A stretch of DNA of 64,000 nt from Acidobacteriota bacterium (GTDB taxonomy: Bacteria > Acidobacteriota > UBA6911 > RPQK01 > JAJDTT01): NCBI GenBank assembly GCA_028874215.1, contig JAPPLF010000027.1, positions 1 through 64,000 of the forward strand, read 5' to 3'. Each line of letters starts with the position of its first letter. Position 1 is the first letter of the stretch. Shown piece by piece: positions 56,742 to 64,000 of the stretch. Both the position numbers and the translations under genes were made by a program. Under the pieces are notes generated by a model. It had not been told where the DNA came from, ran no database searches, and was given only the letters and a program-made list of their open reading frames with translations.

Positions 56742-57893
56742 GTGAGAACTCTCGTTCGGGAATTGGGGAATCGTCTTGAGCGGGTCCGCTCGTCCGGGCT
56801 CTACCGGTCCCTCGAGGACGCGTCCCCCGAGGCCGTGGATTTCTGTTCCAACGACTACCTGGACCTGTCCCGCGATCCGCGGCTGAGGACGTTCCTGATC
56901 GAGCGTTTGCGTGACGAGCCCGAGTCTCGTCCCGTCTCGGCACCCTCCTCCCGGCTGCTGCGGGGAAACACGCCGCACCACCGGCTGCTGGAAGAGAAGC
57001 TGGCCCGGTTCAAGGGGACCGAAGCCGCCCTGGTGTTTCCCAGCGGCTACCAGGCCAACATGGGTCTCCTTTCCGCCCTCATGGGCCCCCGGGACCGGGT
57101 GGTGTCGGACCGTCTCAACCACGCCAGCATCATCGACGGAATTCGTTTGAGCGGGGCGCGGAAGGTCATCCATCCCCACCGGGATCTGGAGGCGGTGCGA
57201 GCCGCTCTCGCGACTCCCCATCCCCGCGGCCGAACCTTCCTGGTCACCGAGTCCCTCTTCAGCATGGACGGGGACATCGCGCCCTTGGACCAATATGCGG
57301 ACCTGGCGGAGGAATGGGGAGCGGACCTGATCGTGGATGACTCCCATGCCACCGGGCTCTTCGGCACCGGTCGAGGGTCGGGCCTGACGGAGCATTTCGG
57401 GATCGAGAAGCGCGCCGCCGCCATCGTCTCGGGGTGCGGCAAGGGTCTGGGCGTGGCCGGCGCGTTCGTGGCCGGCCCCCGAACCGTCATCGAGTACCTG
57501 GTCAACGCCTGCCGCAGCTTCATCTTCACCACATCCACGCCGCCCCTTCTCCTCTACGCGTTGGAGGCGGCGTTGGAAATCGCCGGGGGCGACCCGGGAC
57601 GGCGGGAACGGGTCCTGGAACTCTCAGACCGCCTCCGCCGGCGACTGAGAGGGCAGGGTCTGGACACGTTGGACAGCGCCGGCCCCATCGTGCCGGTCAT
57701 CCTGGGCGACAATCGCCGCGCCCTCGCCGTCGCCCGACGGCTTCGGGAGCAGGGACTGGACGTAAGGGCGCTCCGTCCCCCCACGGTGCCGGCCGGCACC
57801 GCTCGGCTCCGGATCTCGGTTCACGCCAACCATTCTGTCGAGCAGTTGGACCGGCTTTGCCAGGCTCTTGCCGAGGCGCTGGAGACCGTGTGA
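56742..57893 (+). CDS. bioF: 8-amino-7-oxononanoate synthase
   Basis: PLP-dependent enzyme of biotin synthesis joining pimeloyl thioester and L-alanine. It has FCSNDYLDLSRDPRL at the start, VFPSGYQANMGLLSAL, NHASIIDGIRLSGA, VDDSHATGLFG and SGCGKGLGVAGAFVAG with the Schiff-base Lys. At 383 aa it is full length. GTG 56742 has AGGGA about 7 nt upstream. First gene of bioF-bioD-bioA; the bioD ATG overlaps its stop by 1 bp. No bioB or pimeloyl-pathway gene is in the window. Confidence 0.95.
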   Translation: MRTLVRELGNRLERVRSSGLYRSLEDASPEAVDFCSNDYLDLSRDPRLRTFLIERLRDEPESRPVSAPSSRLLRGNTPHHRLLEEKLARFKGTEAALVFPSGYQANMGLLSALMGPRDRVVSDRLNHASIIDGIRLSGARKVIHPHRDLEAVRAALATPHPRGRTFLVTESLFSMDGDIAPLDQYADLAEEWGADLIVDDSHATGLFGTGRGSGLTEHFGIEKRAAAIVSGCGKGLGVAGAFVAGPRTVIEYLVNACRSFIFTTSTPPLLLYALEAALEIAGGDPGRRERVLELSDRLRRRLRGQGLDTLDSAGPIVPVILGDNRRALAVARRLREQGLDVRALRPPTVPAGTARLRISVHANHSVEQLDRLCQALAEALETV

Positions 57894-58591
57894 TGCAGGT
57901 CTTGGTCACTGGAACGGGGACCGAAATCGGCAAGACGGTCGTCTCCGCCGTTCTCCTGGCCCACTGGGCGGGACGGACGCACGTTACCTACTGGAAACCG
58001 GTCGCCACGGGAGCGGAGGAGGGAAGCGACAGCCAGGAGGTGGCTTCCCTGGCGGGTCCGGAGGTGCGGATTCTGAAGGAGTGCTACCGGTTTGGTCCGC
58101 CCCTTTCTCCTCACCTGGCGGCCCGTTTGGCGGGAGTCGAGATCGAACCGGAGCGCATCCTCTCCGCCTACCGGCGTCATCGGGAGTCTGTGGGCGACGG
58201 TCTTTTGGTCGTGGAGGGGATCGGGGGTCTCCTGGTGCCCCTGACCGATCGCGGATATCTCCTGGCCGATCTCCTGAAGGACTTGGCTCTGCCCTGCCTC
58301 GTGGTCGCGTCCAGTCAACTCGGGACCATCAACCACACTTTGCTGACCCTCGAAGCGCTCCGTTCCAGGGACCTGAGCCTGGCGGGAGTGGTCCTGAACG
58401 GGCCCGCCAACCTGGAGAATCGGCGGGCCATCGAGCGGTTCGGCCGGACCCGTGTGGTGGCGGAGTTGCAACCCCTCAATCCCCTCTCCTGCGAGACCGT
58501 CGCGCGAACGGCCTCCGGATTCGACCGGGACCGGGTGCTGGAGCGCTGTCTCCTGGGGCCCCGGCCGGACGCCGGAAGGCGGGTTAGTTAG
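57893..58591 (+). CDS. bioD: dethiobiotin synthetase
   Basis: ATP-dependent ring closure of 7,8-diaminononanoate with CO2. P-loop VTGTGTEIGKTVVSAVLL, then YWKPVATGAEEGSDS and VVEGIGGLLVPLTD with the conserved Glu-Gly. At 232 aa it is normal size. Start ATG overlaps the bioF stop (TGATG); bioA begins 11 bp after the stop. Cytoplasmic. Confidence 0.95.
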   Translation: MQVLVTGTGTEIGKTVVSAVLLAHWAGRTHVTYWKPVATGAEEGSDSQEVASLAGPEVRILKECYRFGPPLSPHLAARLAGVEIEPERILSAYRRHRESVGDGLLVVEGIGGLLVPLTDRGYLLADLLKDLALPCLVVASSQLGTINHTLLTLEALRSRDLSLAGVVLNGPANLENRRAIERFGRTRVVAELQPLNPLSCETVARTASGFDRDRVLERCLLGPRPDAGRRVS

Positions 58592-58602
58592 AGTAGTCGG
58601 CA

Positions 58603-59925
58603 ATGAAAGATTTCGGCGGCTGGGTGTCCCAGGATCGGAAATACGTCTGGCATCCGTTCACCCAGATGCAGACGGCGCCTCCTCCCATCCCCATCGAGCG
58701 CGCCGAAGGGATCTACCTCCATACCCAGGACGGCCGCCGGTTGCTGGACGGCATCTCCTCCTGGTGGGTCAACATCCACGGACACAACCATCCACGTCTC
58801 AACCGTGCGTTGGAGGAACAGGCTTCGCGGCTGGGGCACGTGCTGTTCGCCGGATGCACCCACGAACCGGCGGCACGGTTGGCTTCCGAGCTGGTCCGGC
58901 GCTCACCGGCGGGGTTGTCACGCGTCTTCTTCTCGGACAACGGATCCACCTCGGTGGAGGTGGCGCTGAAGATGTCCTACCAGTATTGGAAGAACCGCGG
59001 CGAGACCCGCGATCTCTTCATCTCTCTGAAACATGCCTACCATGGCGACACCCTGGGTGCCATGGGGGTGGGGGGAGTGGACGCTTTCCACGCCCAGTTC
59101 GCGGACCTCCTGGTGAAGCAGCTCCAGACTCACGCTCCCACCTGCCGGACCTGTCCCGTGGGCCGGACCCGCGCCACGTGTCACATCGAGTGCACCGGCC
59201 GGCTCGAGGACCTCCTGCGGGAGACGGGTCACCGGGTGTCGGCGGTGATCGTGGAGCCCATGGTTCAGGGCGCCGGGGGAATGATCATCTGGCCGGTGGA
59301 GTTCCTGAACCTGGTCCGGGAGCTGACCCGCCGTCACGGAACTCTGCTCATCGCCGACGAGGTCTTCACCGGTTTCGGCCGGACCGGGAAGATGTTCGCC
59401 TGCGAGCATGGACCGGTGACGCCCGACCTCATGTGCCTCTCCAAGGCCCTCACCGGAGGTTATCTCCCCCTGGCCGCCACCCTGGTGGCCGAGCCCCTTT
59501 ACCAGGCGTTTCTGAGCGAGGACCGGGGGCGGGGGTTTCTGCACGGGCATTCCTACACCGCCAATCCCCTGGGATGCGCCGTCGCCCTGGAAAGCCTGGC
59601 CCTTTTCGACGAGGAAGAGCGGCTGGAGCGAGTGGCTCGATTGGCAGAGCTCTTCTCGGAGCGCCTGGCCCGCATCGCCCGGCTGCCTGGAGTGGCGGAG
59701 GTTCGCGGGATCGGAGGGCTGGCGGTGATGGAACTGGAGGCCGAGGGAGAGGCAGGCTATCTCGATTCGCGATCGCCCCGATTGATCCAGACGTTTCTGG
59801 ATAATGGTCTTCTCCTGCGCCCCCTGGGAAATGTTCTCTACTTCCTTCCTCCATATGTCATCGAAGACCGGGAGGTTCACTGGGCGTTCGACGTCATCGA
59901 GGAAGTCCTCGTCTCCATCGCCTGA
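58603..59925 (+). CDS. bioA: adenosylmethionine-8-amino-7-oxononanoate aminotransferase
   Basis: Converts 8-amino-7-oxononanoate to 7,8-diaminononanoate with SAM as amino donor. It begins KYVWHPFTQMQ, a BioA motif, with SSWWVNIHGHNHPRLNRAL, the PLP-contacting DEVFTGFGRTGKMFACEH and CLSKALTGGYLPLAATL with the Schiff-base Lys. At 440 aa it is full length. Third gene of the cluster. Downstream, 59926-60067 separates it from the convergent SurA-like gene. Confidence 0.95.
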   Translation: MKDFGGWVSQDRKYVWHPFTQMQTAPPPIPIERAEGIYLHTQDGRRLLDGISSWWVNIHGHNHPRLNRALEEQASRLGHVLFAGCTHEPAARLASELVRRSPAGLSRVFFSDNGSTSVEVALKMSYQYWKNRGETRDLFISLKHAYHGDTLGAMGVGGVDAFHAQFADLLVKQLQTHAPTCRTCPVGRTRATCHIECTGRLEDLLRETGHRVSAVIVEPMVQGAGGMIIWPVEFLNLVRELTRRHGTLLIADEVFTGFGRTGKMFACEHGPVTPDLMCLSKALTGGYLPLAATLVAEPLYQAFLSEDRGRGFLHGHSYTANPLGCAVALESLALFDEEERLERVARLAELFSERLARIARLPGVAEVRGIGGLAVMELEAEGEAGYLDSRSPRLIQTFLDNGLLLRPLGNVLYFLPPYVIEDREVHWAFDVIEEVLVSIA

Positions 59926-60067: not shown

Positions 60068-60766
60068 TCAGGGACTCTCCGGATGGTTGGGAGACTGAGG
60101 GGGTTCCCTGAACAGCAGAACCTCGACCACGATTCGCTTCCGGGCTTGAGCCACCCAGCGCTCCAGTTCCTGGTTGGCTTTTCGGCGCCCCACGATTTCC
60201 TGAATCCGGTTCTGCAGCAATTCCAGGGGTGGTGCCGAACCTCCTTTGACGGTTGGAAGGAACGTCTCGCGGTAATAGGCTTCGATTTCCCGGGGCAGAA
60301 CGATTACGAACGCCTGAATGCGAACCTGAACGAACTTCTGAACGGTCAACTGTCGCCGGACCACAGCGCGCAGACTTCCCGGGCTCATCCCCATGGACCG
60401 GAGTTTTTTCTGGAACTTCTCTTCCGACCGGAAGTGCCGCCTGTAGGCCTCGATACGAGTTTCCACCTCTGCCGGCAGGATTTCAGCGCCCGGAGTGTTC
60501 CGTGCCTCCCTGGCAATCATGGTTTCCTCGATCAACTGGTTCAACGCCGCAGAATAAACCAGCTTTCTCCGGGCGGGATCCGACGGCAGAATCTGTCCCC
60601 GGAACTGAATCAGCCAACGTACGTCGGAGAGGGTAATGACTTCGTCTCCCACCAAAGCGGCCACTCTGTCCATGATCTCCGAACGAGCGGGACTCAGGTC
60701 CGCGATGGAGCAGAAGACAGCCAGCCAGGTCACGGTCAGAATTCCATGTCGACTCCGGTGGCGCAT
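60068..60766 (-). CDS. SurA N-terminal-domain-like periplasmic chaperone without a PPIase domain
   Basis: A 232-aa exported protein with signal (ILTVTWLAVFCSIADL) then a SurA N-terminal-like helical domain: EIMDRVAALVGDEVITLSDV, ALNQLIEETMIAREARN, then basic helices (KANQELERWVAQARKRIVVE). The parvulin-type domain of SurA/PpiD (with its Q-x2-H and FA-x4-S marks) is absent. It follows the Omp85 gene by 2 bp, so it is coupled to outer-membrane assembly and probably acts as an outer-membrane-protein chaperone. Confidence 0.78.
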   Translation of the reverse strand: MRHRSRHGILTVTWLAVFCSIADLSPARSEIMDRVAALVGDEVITLSDVRWLIQFRGQILPSDPARRKLVYSAALNQLIEETMIAREARNTPGAEILPAEVETRIEAYRRHFRSEEKFQKKLRSMGMSPGSLRAVVRRQLTVQKFVQVRIQAFVIVLPREIEAYYRETFLPTVKGGSAPPLELLQNRIQEIVGRRKANQELERWVAQARKRIVVEVLLFREPPQSPNHPESP

Positions 60767-60768
60767 GG

Positions 60769-63630
60769 CTAAAACGACGGTCCCAGTATGAAGTGAAAGT
60801 TCCAGTGCTTGAACGCCGTCACGTCCGGTGGACTGGGATTGTAGCCCACATCGAAGCGAATCGGCCCCAAGGGCGTGTTGGCCTGAATCCCCAATCCGAC
60901 GGCGTGCGTAAAGTTGGATGGAAGATCACGAAAGGTACGGAAAACATTGCCCCCGTCGTAAAACAACGCGGCCTCGAAGAAGGCCGCCAGTGGAAACCGG
61001 AGTTCCAGATTTGCGATCAAGAGAGCGTTGCCGCCCAACGGAACGGGTCGCCCGGCCGGGTCAGACTCTCCCCGATGGTTCACGAGCACGATCTCGCCCG
61101 TCTCGGGATCGCGCAAGAGCGGCCCGGCAAGCTCCCGGGGCAAACCCCGCAGGGTGGTTGATCCTCCGGAGAAGAATCGCTCGCTCAAGGGGGCGGGGTT
61201 GGACATTTCATCTGGAGCAGCGAGTCCAAACGCACCGATCCAACCCAGTCTGAGGGAGGAAGCCAGAATCAGATCGGGATGGAGCTTTCGGTAGTACTGG
61301 CCCTGAGCCAGAGCACGGAAAAAGTTTGCGCCCGAACCGATTGCCTTGAGAGAGAGTTTTGTGTCGCCAGTCAAAAGGAAGCCTTCAGTGGCGTTGGTGG
61401 GGTCGTCTCTCGACTCGTTCAGATAGGACAGCGCAAAGCTGGAAAGCCGCAGCCGGTCCTGCTCGCGGAAGAACTGCAGGGGAACGTCCAGATCTTCGGG
61501 AAGCCTGATCCGTACGGCTTCGAAGTTGTAGCGAAAGAACATGGACTCGCGCCGGCTCAACGGTCGTTCGGTCTGGGTCGACAAGATGACACGAGATTCG
61601 TCGAAGGGTTTCCCTCGGGGAGCCCGGATGTCTCCTTCGGTGTCCGTGGTTAGGGCCGCTTCATTGTTGGCCGTCAGGGATGTGACCGTGGGGAGCTTCC
61701 GTCCGAAGAAACGGGACGCGGTGTACGACAAATTGGCGCGTTGTCGTTTGGAACCGGCGCGCAGACCAAGAGCCAGAGTTTCGGCTCTTCCCAGGAAGTT
61801 GCCGTTGCTGATGCCGAGCGTGCCGCGCGGCCCCTCAGACGAGGAATAGCCGCCGCCGTAGGAGAGTGTATATTTCCTTGCCTCCTCCACCGCGACCACC
61901 ACGTTGCGGCGAAGCGGGTCGATGAAGGATGGAATCTCCCGAATCTCCACGCGGCTGAAAACGGCCAAGTCGTACAGATCGCTCTCGGTCGCCAGAATTC
62001 GAGTGAGTGACGCCGGATCTCCGGGCTTTATGGAGATTGCCTCGTGAACTAACCTTTCTTTCGTGCTCAGGTTCCCGGAGAGCACGACCACATCAGTGAA
62101 ATGCCGGGGGCCTTCCTCGATGACAAAGGTGACGTGGGCGGCGGCAACCTCAGGAAACGAGATCTGAAAGCGGCAGTCCACCTGCCGGTAGCCCAGATCT
62201 TCGTACATAGCCAGCAGGTTGGCTCGATCCCGGGTCAGATTCGCAAGGGCGAACGGAGTGCCCGGACGGCCTTGGAGCTGATTCTCCAGAACTCTCCGGC
62301 TCAACTCCTCGTTTCCGACAAACTGAACGTCCCGAATGAAATACCTTGTGCCCTCCCGGATCTCGTAGGTCAGCTTCAGGTTGCGGCCGGGTGGATTCGC
62401 TGCCACCAGTTCGTAGGTGACTTCCACATCCCTGAACCCTCTCTGCCGGTAATAGGCTTCGATGACACGGAGGTCATCCTGGGCCATCCGCTCGGTAAAC
62501 CGCCCGCTGCGAAACATTCCGCCCTTCCTGACGCTGACGATTCCGAGTAGAACTCCGTCTTCCGCGAACTCGTTACCTTCGAAAAGAACGCTGCCGACCC
62601 TGCACCGCGCACCTCTCTCGACCCTGAACAAGATCGCGTTGGAATTGGCGCGGTCTTGTCTCTCCAGCGCTACGTGGGCCAGCAGATACCCGCGGCGCTG
62701 ATAGATTTCCCGGAGTTCCGCCGTGGTGTCGTCCAAGAGGTTTTCCAGCAGTCCCTTCCGGCTGAAGACGGGAAGATCGGCGAGCGTCTGCTGATCCAGA
62801 TCAACACCCTCGAATTCGATCACCGTGCGGTTGCCCGGTTGAATCTGCAGCCGAAGCGATACCGTATTGTCGGTGCGGTCGTACTGCAGTTGCTCACGAA
62901 TCCTTGCTGCCGCGAAACCTTGCCGGGCCAGGTCTTTTTCCACTCGACGAATGATCTGGTCGAGCCGACTCCTGGAGAAGACCGAACCTCTCGCGTTTTC
63001 AAGCTGAACCTGAAACCTTTCCAGGTCCAAAGCTTCGGGGGCTTCAATCTCGACCTGCTTCATCCGAGCCCCCCGGCCGGCCGTGATCCGGAATGCCAGG
63101 TTGATACCTGCCCCGTCATGATCGATCTCAAACTCGGGCTCGACTGCTGCCTGGTGGTACCCGTTCCTCCGGTAGAAACTGCTCACCTTGACAAGGCTTT
63201 CCTCGAAACTCGCATCGGAGTATGGTTCGCCGGGTTTCAAGACCAGTTGCCGGCGGAGTTGCCTCCTGTCGGCTTCGACTTGACCGATGAATCGAATCTG
63301 GTCCATTAGATATTTTCGAATCAGGAAAACCGTGACCGACACTCCGCCGTCGGACGATTTCCGGACGTCGATCTGAACATCGTGAAAGACTCCCGTGGCG
63401 TAGAGTCGGCGCAGAGTCGTTTGAGCCCGGGAACTCGTGTAGGGTTCCTCTTCACGAATCGTGATCAACCTGAACACGTCCGCTTCGGAAATTCTGGTCA
63501 GCCGTCCGTCCGCGTGAATTTCCACGCGGCGGACGGTCTTTCCTTCGAACCGGGAATCGGCACTGGCCTCAGCATACGTGAACGGTAGGAGAAGAAGGCC
63601 GATCATGACCGCGGGTCTGCCGAAGCGCAT
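60769..63630 (-). CDS. Omp85-family outer-membrane assembly protein (BamA/TamA type) with seven POTRA domains
   Basis: A 953-aa protein with signal peptide (FGRPAVMIGLLLLPFTYAEA). I can read seven successive POTRA-like units of about 75-90 residues (about 25-570), each with a beta1 start, e.g. VRRVEIHADGRLTRISEADV, MDQIRFIGQVEADRRQL, CRVGSVLFEGNEFAEDGV and FIRDVQFVGNEELSRRVL. The barrel (about 575-953) begins with TLSYGGGYSSSEGPRGTLG and ends HFILGPSF, with the usual terminal aromatic. The gene lies between a TamB-like gene and the SurA-like gene, which suggests TamA or a combined role. ATG 63630 gives the signal peptide. Confidence 0.93.
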   Translation of the reverse strand: MRFGRPAVMIGLLLLPFTYAEASADSRFEGKTVRRVEIHADGRLTRISEADVFRLITIREEEPYTSSRAQTTLRRLYATGVFHDVQIDVRKSSDGGVSVTVFLIRKYLMDQIRFIGQVEADRRQLRRQLVLKPGEPYSDASFEESLVKVSSFYRRNGYHQAAVEPEFEIDHDGAGINLAFRITAGRGARMKQVEIEAPEALDLERFQVQLENARGSVFSRSRLDQIIRRVEKDLARQGFAAARIREQLQYDRTDNTVSLRLQIQPGNRTVIEFEGVDLDQQTLADLPVFSRKGLLENLLDDTTAELREIYQRRGYLLAHVALERQDRANSNAILFRVERGARCRVGSVLFEGNEFAEDGVLLGIVSVRKGGMFRSGRFTERMAQDDLRVIEAYYRQRGFRDVEVTYELVAANPPGRNLKLTYEIREGTRYFIRDVQFVGNEELSRRVLENQLQGRPGTPFALANLTRDRANLLAMYEDLGYRQVDCRFQISFPEVAAAHVTFVIEEGPRHFTDVVVLSGNLSTKERLVHEAISIKPGDPASLTRILATESDLYDLAVFSRVEIREIPSFIDPLRRNVVVAVEEARKYTLSYGGGYSSSEGPRGTLGISNGNFLGRAETLALGLRAGSKRQRANLSYTASRFFGRKLPTVTSLTANNEAALTTDTEGDIRAPRGKPFDESRVILSTQTERPLSRRESMFFRYNFEAVRIRLPEDLDVPLQFFREQDRLRLSSFALSYLNESRDDPTNATEGFLLTGDTKLSLKAIGSGANFFRALAQGQYYRKLHPDLILASSLRLGWIGAFGLAAPDEMSNPAPLSERFFSGGSTTLRGLPRELAGPLLRDPETGEIVLVNHRGESDPAGRPVPLGGNALLIANLELRFPLAAFFEAALFYDGGNVFRTFRDLPSNFTHAVGLGIQANTPLGPIRFDVGYNPSPPDVTAFKHWNFHFILGPSF

Positions 63631-63784
63631 GACGACAGGCCCCACTGTCCTATGAAAATCCTTGGTCAACTCTCACCCGGAATTCCGCAAATTTGTTCAG
63701 TGAGGAGTAACCAGGAGCTTCCAGGCCCTGTCCCTCCCACCAGTCAGGCCGGCCTTATTCTGGTTTTGACAGGTCCTCTCTCGA

Positions 63785-63803
63785 TCCGGTTGCCAAGACC
63801 GGA
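63785..63803 (-). terminator. possible hairpin after the TamB-like gene
   Basis: TCCGGT (63785-63790) and ACCGGA (63798-63803), 7-nt loop, 19 bp past the stop. There is no T-run, so it may be a weak terminator or simply structure. The rest of 63631-63822 holds no gene I can support. Confidence 0.3.
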
Positions 63804-63822
63804 CTTTCCGGATGAGAACGAG

Positions 63823-64000
63823 TTAAAATCTTTTCTTGAGTTTGAGATCAACCGCGACCGAGCCATCCTGTTCACGGCTTCCAAGGGCAGTGAGCCCCTC
63901 ATTGATTCGAGATTCGAATACGACGGTCTGGCTCTGACTGATGTTACCCAGATCCATGCTGTAGTGCAAGGACAGCCTCCGTCCCAGTTGCTTGCCCAGC
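63823..64000 (-). CDS. C-terminal end of a TamB/DUF490-domain protein (partial)
   Basis: The last 58 residues (from about LGKQLGRRLSLHYSMDLGNI), ending VAVDLKLKKRF, run off the right edge. The short amphipathic strands and final K/R-K-R-F match TamB-type proteins, which form a bridge between inner and outer membranes for envelope biogenesis and lipid transport. The following Omp85 gene supports this. The identification rests on the tail only. Confidence 0.7.
   Translation of the reverse strand, partial: LGKQLGRRLSLHYSMDLGNISQSQTVVFESRINEGLTALGSREQDGSVAVDLKLKKRF

Follow-up and report, generated by a model that had tools for sequence, protein, structure and literature searches.

We analysed a window of 64,000 nucleotides, positions 1 to 64,000 of contig JAPPLF010000027.1 (C27:1-64000) of an Acidobacteriota genome (GCA_028874215.1; 5.7 Mb, 113 contigs, 97.5% complete). 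The end of the window (60068-64000) carries three genes in the minus-strand order tamB, omp85 and a gene for a SurA-like chaperone. Only the 3' end of tamB lies inside the window (63823..64000, minus strand; C-terminal residues ending LKKRF, by reading of the open reading frame (ORF) and by Pfam TamB); the complete ORF encodes 1303 residues, is mostly off the window and extends to C27:67734. The protein has the features of the translocation and assembly module (TAM) type: a C-terminal TamB domain (PF04357, 134.8 bits, E 5.9e-39, residues 957-1303 of the full-length protein), an N-terminal hydrophobic anchor, read as a hydrophobic stretch in the translation, and a last strand resembling that of an outer-membrane protein (OMP). 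A search of the whole genome gave no second TamB at E <= 0.001. The gene for the TamB-linked Omp85 (60769..63669, minus strand, 966 residues) follows after 153 nt, and a further 2 nt separate it from the gene for the SurA core-like chaperone (60068..60766, minus strand, 232 residues), which lacks a peptidyl-prolyl isomerase (PPIase) domain. The original prediction, made from the letters of the window alone, had placed a TamB-like tail, an Omp85 protein and a SurA-like chaperone in one operon. The tail proved to be the 3' part of the 1303-residue tamB, and the shared strand, the spacing and the tandem order kept in relatives support the predicted operon.

The 966-residue frame of omp85 opens with TTG; an ATG at 63630 precedes a signal-like segment and is the likelier true start, which would lengthen the distance from tamB to 192 nt. 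Pfam Omp85 (PF01103) matched with 147.8 bits, and Pfam POTRA (PF07244) with 195 bits in seven stretches when hits up to E 10, a lax limit, were allowed. A family POTRA profile, partly circular because POTRAs cut by hand from this protein and from the BamA of the same genome had served as its seeds, likewise gave seven units on the minus strand. These are POTRA1 (residues 44-117, 63319..63540; 25.8 bits with PF07244 alone), POTRA2 (119-198, 63076..63315; 47.2 bits), POTRA3 (201-279, 62833..63069; 34.8 bits), POTRA4 (282-353, 62611..62826; 16.4 bits), POTRA5 (355-440, 62350..62607; 42.5 bits), POTRA6 (442-520, 62110..62346; 44.7 bits) and POTRA7 (522-596, 61882..62106; 27.7 bits), the last adjoining the barrel (residues 624-966, 60772..61800, minus strand; PF01103 positions 1-325 of 325). 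Cut out singly, six of the seven exceed the Pfam cut-off of 21.3 bits and POTRA4, the weakest, fails. At E 0.01 Pfam POTRA was less sensitive than the family profile (five against seven at locus L055, three against five at the fusion locus L045). Both sequence profiles arrive at the seven POTRAs first read from the sequence, and not at five or fewer; with this number the protein departs from both the TamA type (three) and the BamA type (five). It passed the BamA equivalog TIGR03303 (382.8 bits, cut-off 297.15) and failed the TamA model NF047950 (106.5 bits, cut-off 625).

The 232-residue chaperone carries SurA_N_3 above its cut-off (38.1 against 27.2 bits) and gave no Rotamase match at E <= 10, so the original description as a PPIase-less SurA relative holds. 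A profile built from its orthologues matches E. coli SurA in the PDB over the core N-domain (E 2.6e-12). Among the 22 orthologues SurA_N_3 was found in 16 at E up to 0.01, and Rotamase_2 in two (best E 7e-4). Two further sites of the window genome, on contigs C66 and C41, hold SurA_N_3 and Rotamase matches in one frame.

Three Omp85 barrels were found in the window genome. The protein encoded on contig C63 has five POTRAs and reaches 470 bits with the BamA equivalog, whose cut-off is 297. Its gene is followed by lpxD, fabZ and lpxA (above cut-offs) and then by an lpxI-like gene, with one ORF between bamA and lpxD that had no match, and is preceded by lolD- and lolCE-like genes; the names lpxI, lolD and lolCE are those of best matches under curated cut-offs. 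This five-POTRA BamA in an lpxD-fabZ-lpxA locus makes the window protein a second, TamB-linked Omp85. In a tree of 77 rows the window protein falls inside a clade of TamB-linked Omp85 proteins, unfused and fused (support 100/98), apart from a BamA side (100/99) of 18 rows plus E. coli BamA; 'BamA' here labels rows that are neither fused nor TamB-linked, and only for the window genome was gene order checked. E. coli TamA and the proteins of two divergent loci (L053, L075) sit on long branches outside both sides. A separate BamA and separate clades argue that the window protein is no stand-in for the beta-barrel assembly machinery (BAM), and on these sequence grounds we conclude that it is not the BamA of the cell; like a TAM partner, it adjoins tamB and stands apart from BamA. 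The original idea of one machine merging Bam-like and Tam-like duties therefore survives in part: the separate five-POTRA BamA and the clade of its own speak against a merger, and the neighbouring SurA core and TamB speak for it. The same prediction had named a second BamA with BamD neighbours, together with five or fewer POTRAs, as the finding that would count against it. The second BamA exists, on C63, the BamD-type YfiO gene lies elsewhere, on C61, and the POTRA count is seven. The third barrel (L006 8383-10143, G000:C96) has no POTRA match at E 0.01.

The gene neighbourhood is kept in relatives. We compared 25 unfused loci of TamB-type Omp85, after removing three duplicate contigs (L036-L038, shared with L078, L079 and L077) and two BamA loci (L054, L096); L089, with a TamB and no Omp85 in the fetched stretch, stands outside this set. 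A SurA core gene adjoins omp85 in 22 of the 25, the exceptions being L053, L075 and L081. By the family profile, 22 loci encode seven POTRAs, one encodes six (L064) and two encode three, one of the latter being cut off at its 5' end. Most loci have the order TamB-Omp85-SurA; Omp85-SurA-TamB occurs in L090-L094 (family f10) and L133 (f85), and no TamB was seen in the fetched stretch of L079 and L095. The divergent L053 and L075, the latter cut off, were left out of the SurA tests and of the second tree.

In Acidobacteriota relatives, TamB and Omp85 also occur as one chain. Single ORFs running from a TamB domain through POTRAs to a barrel were found at least 48 times, in at least 45 genomes and at least 26 families. 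The loci were picked for long frames (about 2300 residues), so that 48 is a lower bound and gives no frequency, and frame length alone was not taken as proof of fusion; for scale, TamB was found at E <= 1e-20 in 317 of 396 evenly drawn Acidobacteriota genomes. Complete, unbroken fusion ORFs span 1855-2539 residues, and four others (L049, L052, L059, L123) run off the fetched stretch. Among the 48 fusions listed, 34 have five POTRAs, nine have four, two have seven, one has three and two have one; five of the nine 'four-POTRA' fusions have room for a fifth (gap of 433-457 residues) and the 'three-POTRA' fusion L112 has room for five or six (gap of 498). A hydrophobic N-terminal stretch is present in 25 of the 27 fusions with a complete start; the other two (L058, L061) have a stretch resembling a cleavable signal about 380-480 residues into the ORF. 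Many fusions keep an OMP-like TamB end (e.g. HDLRFGG) 18-63 residues before the first POTRA; in the window, where TamB is unfused, its last residues are LKKRF. The linker from TamB domain to first POTRA measures 19-45 residues in five-POTRA fusions and 52-63 residues in the four fusions with true four-POTRA spacing and in the two with seven POTRAs. Judged by its sequence, the fused chain should bridge the inner and outer membranes.

None of the 31 junctions checked has a signal-peptide-like stretch, which all 22 unfused Omp85 N-termini measured do have; the highest mean hydropathy was -1.75 to 1.26 at the former and 1.87 to 3.43 at the latter. In four pairs with finite synonymous divergence (dS), two of them sharing L042, the ratio of nonsynonymous to synonymous divergence (dN/dS) was 0.15-0.35 over the junction, 0.17-0.41 over the TamB parts and 0.14-0.21 over the remaining Omp85, pointing to purifying selection on the junction in these four; in a fifth pair the junction dS was saturated. 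No SurA core was seen in the flank of the 31 loci (at least 679 bp downstream in 30, 294 bp in L059) or at 17 fusion loci added later. Forcing the 31 fusions into one clade costs 19.2 log units (approximately unbiased test, p 0.02, 77 rows). The fusion label changes twice among TamB-linked rows only, three times with BamA rows counted as unfused, and four times in a larger quick tree with open backbone, a second tree from which E. coli TamA, L053 and L075 were excluded. The tree thus indicates that the fusion state changed more than once; we claim no direction, and the changes fit repeated fusion as well as fusion followed by splitting. Beyond Acidobacteriota, one tblastn search of plasmids returned 44 records, and in no record did the match reach 80% of the query.

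Several loci show intermediate or broken forms. TamB and Omp85 lie in the same frame in L064, L107 and L113, split by only a stop codon and 0-9 nt. With reported frames of more than 2000 residues these three had been candidate fusions, and we rejected them as separate genes with one in-frame stop between; the arrangement could be a step next to fusion. In L051 (1368-8164) the fusion is broken, with an ORF for the TamB front overlapping the remainder, and L102 (3358-9805) was rejected as an intact fusion because a frame change breaks it; either case could be real splitting or a sequencing error. At L123 (G042:C185, 3-3161) and L124 (G057:C51, 1704-7271) TamB is fused to a barrel with only one POTRA found between them. 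The first of these genomes also has a five-POTRA fusion and the second a four-POTRA fusion, and genome G029 holds two different fusions (L047, L050).

To see which POTRAs the fusions have lost, we matched every POTRA of 31 fusions to seven profiles, one for each position. No POTRA in these 31 was best matched by POTRA1. In the 25 fusions with five POTRAs, the first one was best matched by POTRA2 in 13, POTRA3 in 11 and POTRA6 in one. The second was mostly POTRA4 (19), the third mostly POTRA5 (17), the fourth POTRA2, 5 or 6 (POTRA3 once) and the fifth POTRA7 (24). A four-POTRA group (L060, L063, L072, L073) gave best matches 4, 5, 6 (5 once) and 7. By profile match, POTRA1 is gone in all scored fusions, along with POTRA2 or POTRA3 or both. 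Since the next POTRA is POTRA4-like, the simplest view is that POTRA1-2 were lost from the front.

The SurA core follows the same part of the arm. With a profile of 22 orthologues we screened 25 genomes that bear fusions (limit E 1e-3) and a further 30 genomes (E 1e-12). A SurA core was counted where a single match spanned the greater part of the profile and its frame left no room for a PPIase domain. In the exceptions G001, G022, G064 and G347 the stop-to-stop frame is longer, and there reading gave a short ORF or an adjacent Omp85 match or, in G064, the match is confined to the final 200 residues of the frame. SurA cores were found in 28 of the 55 genomes: in all 15 with a counted seven-POTRA partner, in G263, whose partner has six POTRAs counted, and in 12 whose partner's POTRAs were uncounted (G022, G045, G338, G345, G076, G243, G292, G294, G198, G139, G069, G096). 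Seven of the 15 seven-POTRA genomes supplied sequences to the profile, so that their match is built in; the remaining eight (G005, G375, G188, G284, G061, G212, G064, G264) did not. No SurA core was found in the 27 genomes whose only known partners have five or fewer POTRAs (15 searched at E 1e-3, 12 at 1e-12). Matches there were partial and lay in frames of at least 321 residues, save one of 171 (57 bits) and one of 191 residues (32 bits). In one of these genomes, G047, there is an additional, orphan TamB for which no Omp85 was found, and any of the 27 could encode a seven-POTRA Omp85 remote from TamB. In family f33 TamB is fused yet seven POTRAs are kept (L100, L104), and both genomes keep a SurA core at an unlinked site (L117, L118), which indicates that, in the genomes checked, the chaperone tracks the full arm and not the unfused state. 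In five f33 genomes (L117-L121) the SurA core gene is unlinked to TamB or Omp85 and lies a few kb from genes that we take, by eye from a motif at their N-termini, to be of DnaK and DnaJ type.

The co-occurrence agrees with a published study in which the SurA core contacts POTRA-1 and POTRA-2 of BamA and, by itself, complements surA deletion strains for their membrane sensitivity (PMC11366764). As a neighbour that also co-occurs, the SurA core suggests that the window Omp85 combines, through putative binding, a Bam-type partner with the Tam-type partner TamB. Three genes, seven POTRAs, a separate BamA, a kept neighbourhood, fusions and the link between SurA core and full arm are what the sequences establish. 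We consider it fairly likely that TamB, a seven-POTRA Omp85 and a SurA core on its first POTRAs form a three-part TAM-like machine beside a separate BAM. TamB, described as an inner-membrane-anchored groove protein that docks on Omp85 (PMC11014939), would be anchored in the inner membrane and span the periplasm, and its C-terminal OMP-like strand would dock on the Omp85, a BamA-like protein whose long arm has seven POTRAs; the C-terminal TamB strands may close the barrel (PMC13382580). The SurA core would sit on the first POTRAs (POTRA1 with POTRA2, or POTRA1 with POTRA3), as it does on POTRA1-2 of E. coli BamA, and hand clients over to the arm, with TamB docking nearer the barrel. Physical docking and client transfer are what we infer, and so is the cargo, which may be protein, lipid or both. 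With a little less confidence we lean towards a broader view in which the TAM of Acidobacteriota occurs naturally as one chain, TamB::POTRA(n)::barrel, a predicted integral protein of both membranes at once that arose or split more than once, with the SurA core kept where the first POTRAs are kept. The docking sites would thus be mapped, the SurA core to the first POTRAs and the end of TamB closer to the barrel, and the working cycle would not require TamB to leave Omp85.

Several points weigh against this picture. Genomes were scored as lacking the SurA core at E 1e-3 or only at 1e-12, and seven of the 27 concerned are less than 85% complete. On the tree, the fusion label changes few times, and fusion and SurA core give only two independent pairs (L059 left out for want of flank), so that significance is unreachable. 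L081 is unfused and has seven POTRAs without an adjacent SurA core, although its genome has one elsewhere. In a second fusion group the first POTRA is best matched by POTRA2 in six of eight, and the lost pair is POTRA1 plus one of POTRA2 and POTRA3, not surely POTRA1-2. Structure prediction of Omp85 (four sequences) reached a mean pLDDT (predicted local distance difference test) of 30.7 and was not used, so that the POTRA count rests on sequence profiles. The predicted model of the SurA-like protein is poor (61.4), and SurA chains top its fold search weakly (best E 6e-3). E. coli TamA, on a very long branch, was left unplaced by the tree, and no kinship with TamA is read from it.

Other explanations make different use of the same genes. 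The fused ORFs might be artefacts of assembly or annotation, or be cut in two after export, and would then be uninformative on docking. Most of the genomes are drafts and the fusion is split into two frames in L051 and L102, but the number of ORFs, genomes and families, the junctions free of signal-peptide-like stretches and the purifying selection across the junction in four pairs make this very improbable, although proteolytic cutting may occur. Alternatively, the Omp85 could be a second general BamA, part of a merged BAM and TAM for bulk OMP assembly with the SurA core, and TamB would be co-transcribed without being a partner. Such a role would fit the outcome of the BamA and TamA models, the adjacent SurA-like gene and the hybrid BAM-TAM published for Borrelia (PMC13382580). 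We regard it as unlikely, given that a five-POTRA BamA already occupies the lpx locus, that the window protein falls outside the BamA clade, that TamB is fused to this Omp85 lineage in so many genomes, and that none of the 19 BamA-side rows (18 plus E. coli BamA; both trees) reads as a fusion.

A chiefly lipid role is possible, if doubtful: TamB would carry phospholipid to the outer membrane, Omp85 would be its outer anchor and the SurA core would only help to fold Omp85 or TamB. TamB belongs to the AsmA superfamily and its role in lipid transport is debated (PMC11014939), and a covalent link between TamB and barrel suits a permanent bridge. The tracking of the full arm by the SurA core points instead to protein clients at the arm, which is not decisive.

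Beside the operon (56742-59925, plus strand) lie genes with the look of a biotin cluster, among them class I/II and class III aminotransferases by Pfam; the putative names bioF and bioA are our reading. Upstream of tamB, a divergent gene (L004 10374-11849, plus strand) encodes a 491-residue PQQ-repeat protein whose PF13360 match is labelled BamB (103.6 bits); it could be either an unrelated quinoprotein or a propeller like BamB.

The fusions bear on how TamB docks on its outer-membrane partner and on whether release is needed for substrate entry, as raised by a 2026 Borrelia model in which TamB strands close the BamA barrel, possibly transiently (PMC13382580). A natural covalent joint limits where the TamB end can be and is a ready single-chain construct for structural work, so that docking in such machines, separate from ordinary BamA, becomes testable. 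A SurA core that tracks the first POTRAs would give evolutionary support, from another phylum, to the contact between SurA and POTRAs that cryo-electron microscopy shows in E. coli and suggests that a TAM can have a chaperone of its own.

Seven-POTRA, TamB-linked Omp85 proteins of Acidobacteria are already published: Heinz et al. (2015) described a duplicated seven-POTRA BamA in an operon with TamB and proposed an origin of TamA from it (PMC4494059). For the TamB::Omp85 fusion, the SurA core partner and its link to the full arm we found no description in the literature searched, a limited collection. The system of Heinz et al. resembles that of the window in having a second BamA-type Omp85 with seven POTRAs beside TamB. 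It differs in gene order (BamA-TamB against TamB-Omp85-SurA), in the divergent POTRA (the third there, the fourth as the weakest here) and in the SurA partner, which is present at the window and absent from the sections of that paper covered; the words 'fusion' and 'fused' are absent from its main text. TamA-TamB of Proteobacteria and TamL-TamB of Bacteroidota likewise combine TamB and an Omp85 in one operon beside a separate BamA, whereas the window protein has seven POTRAs instead of three, a BamA-type score, a SurA core neighbour and fused relatives. E. coli SurA shares its core N-domain with the window chaperone, which has 232 residues, lacks the PPIase domain and is encoded beside TamB and Omp85. 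WD40-Omp85 proteins, reminiscent of a BamA-BamB fusion (PMC4104836), also join an Omp85 to a partner-like domain, but that domain resembles the lipoprotein BamB and not the inner-membrane-anchored TamB. The hybrid BAM-TAM of Borrelia burgdorferi is alike in placing TamB on a BamA-type Omp85, with C-terminal TamB strands modelled as completing the barrel (PMC13382580). Borrelia has no TamA and uses its sole BamA, whereas the window genome keeps BamA separate, and relatives have the end of TamB attached to the POTRA arm.

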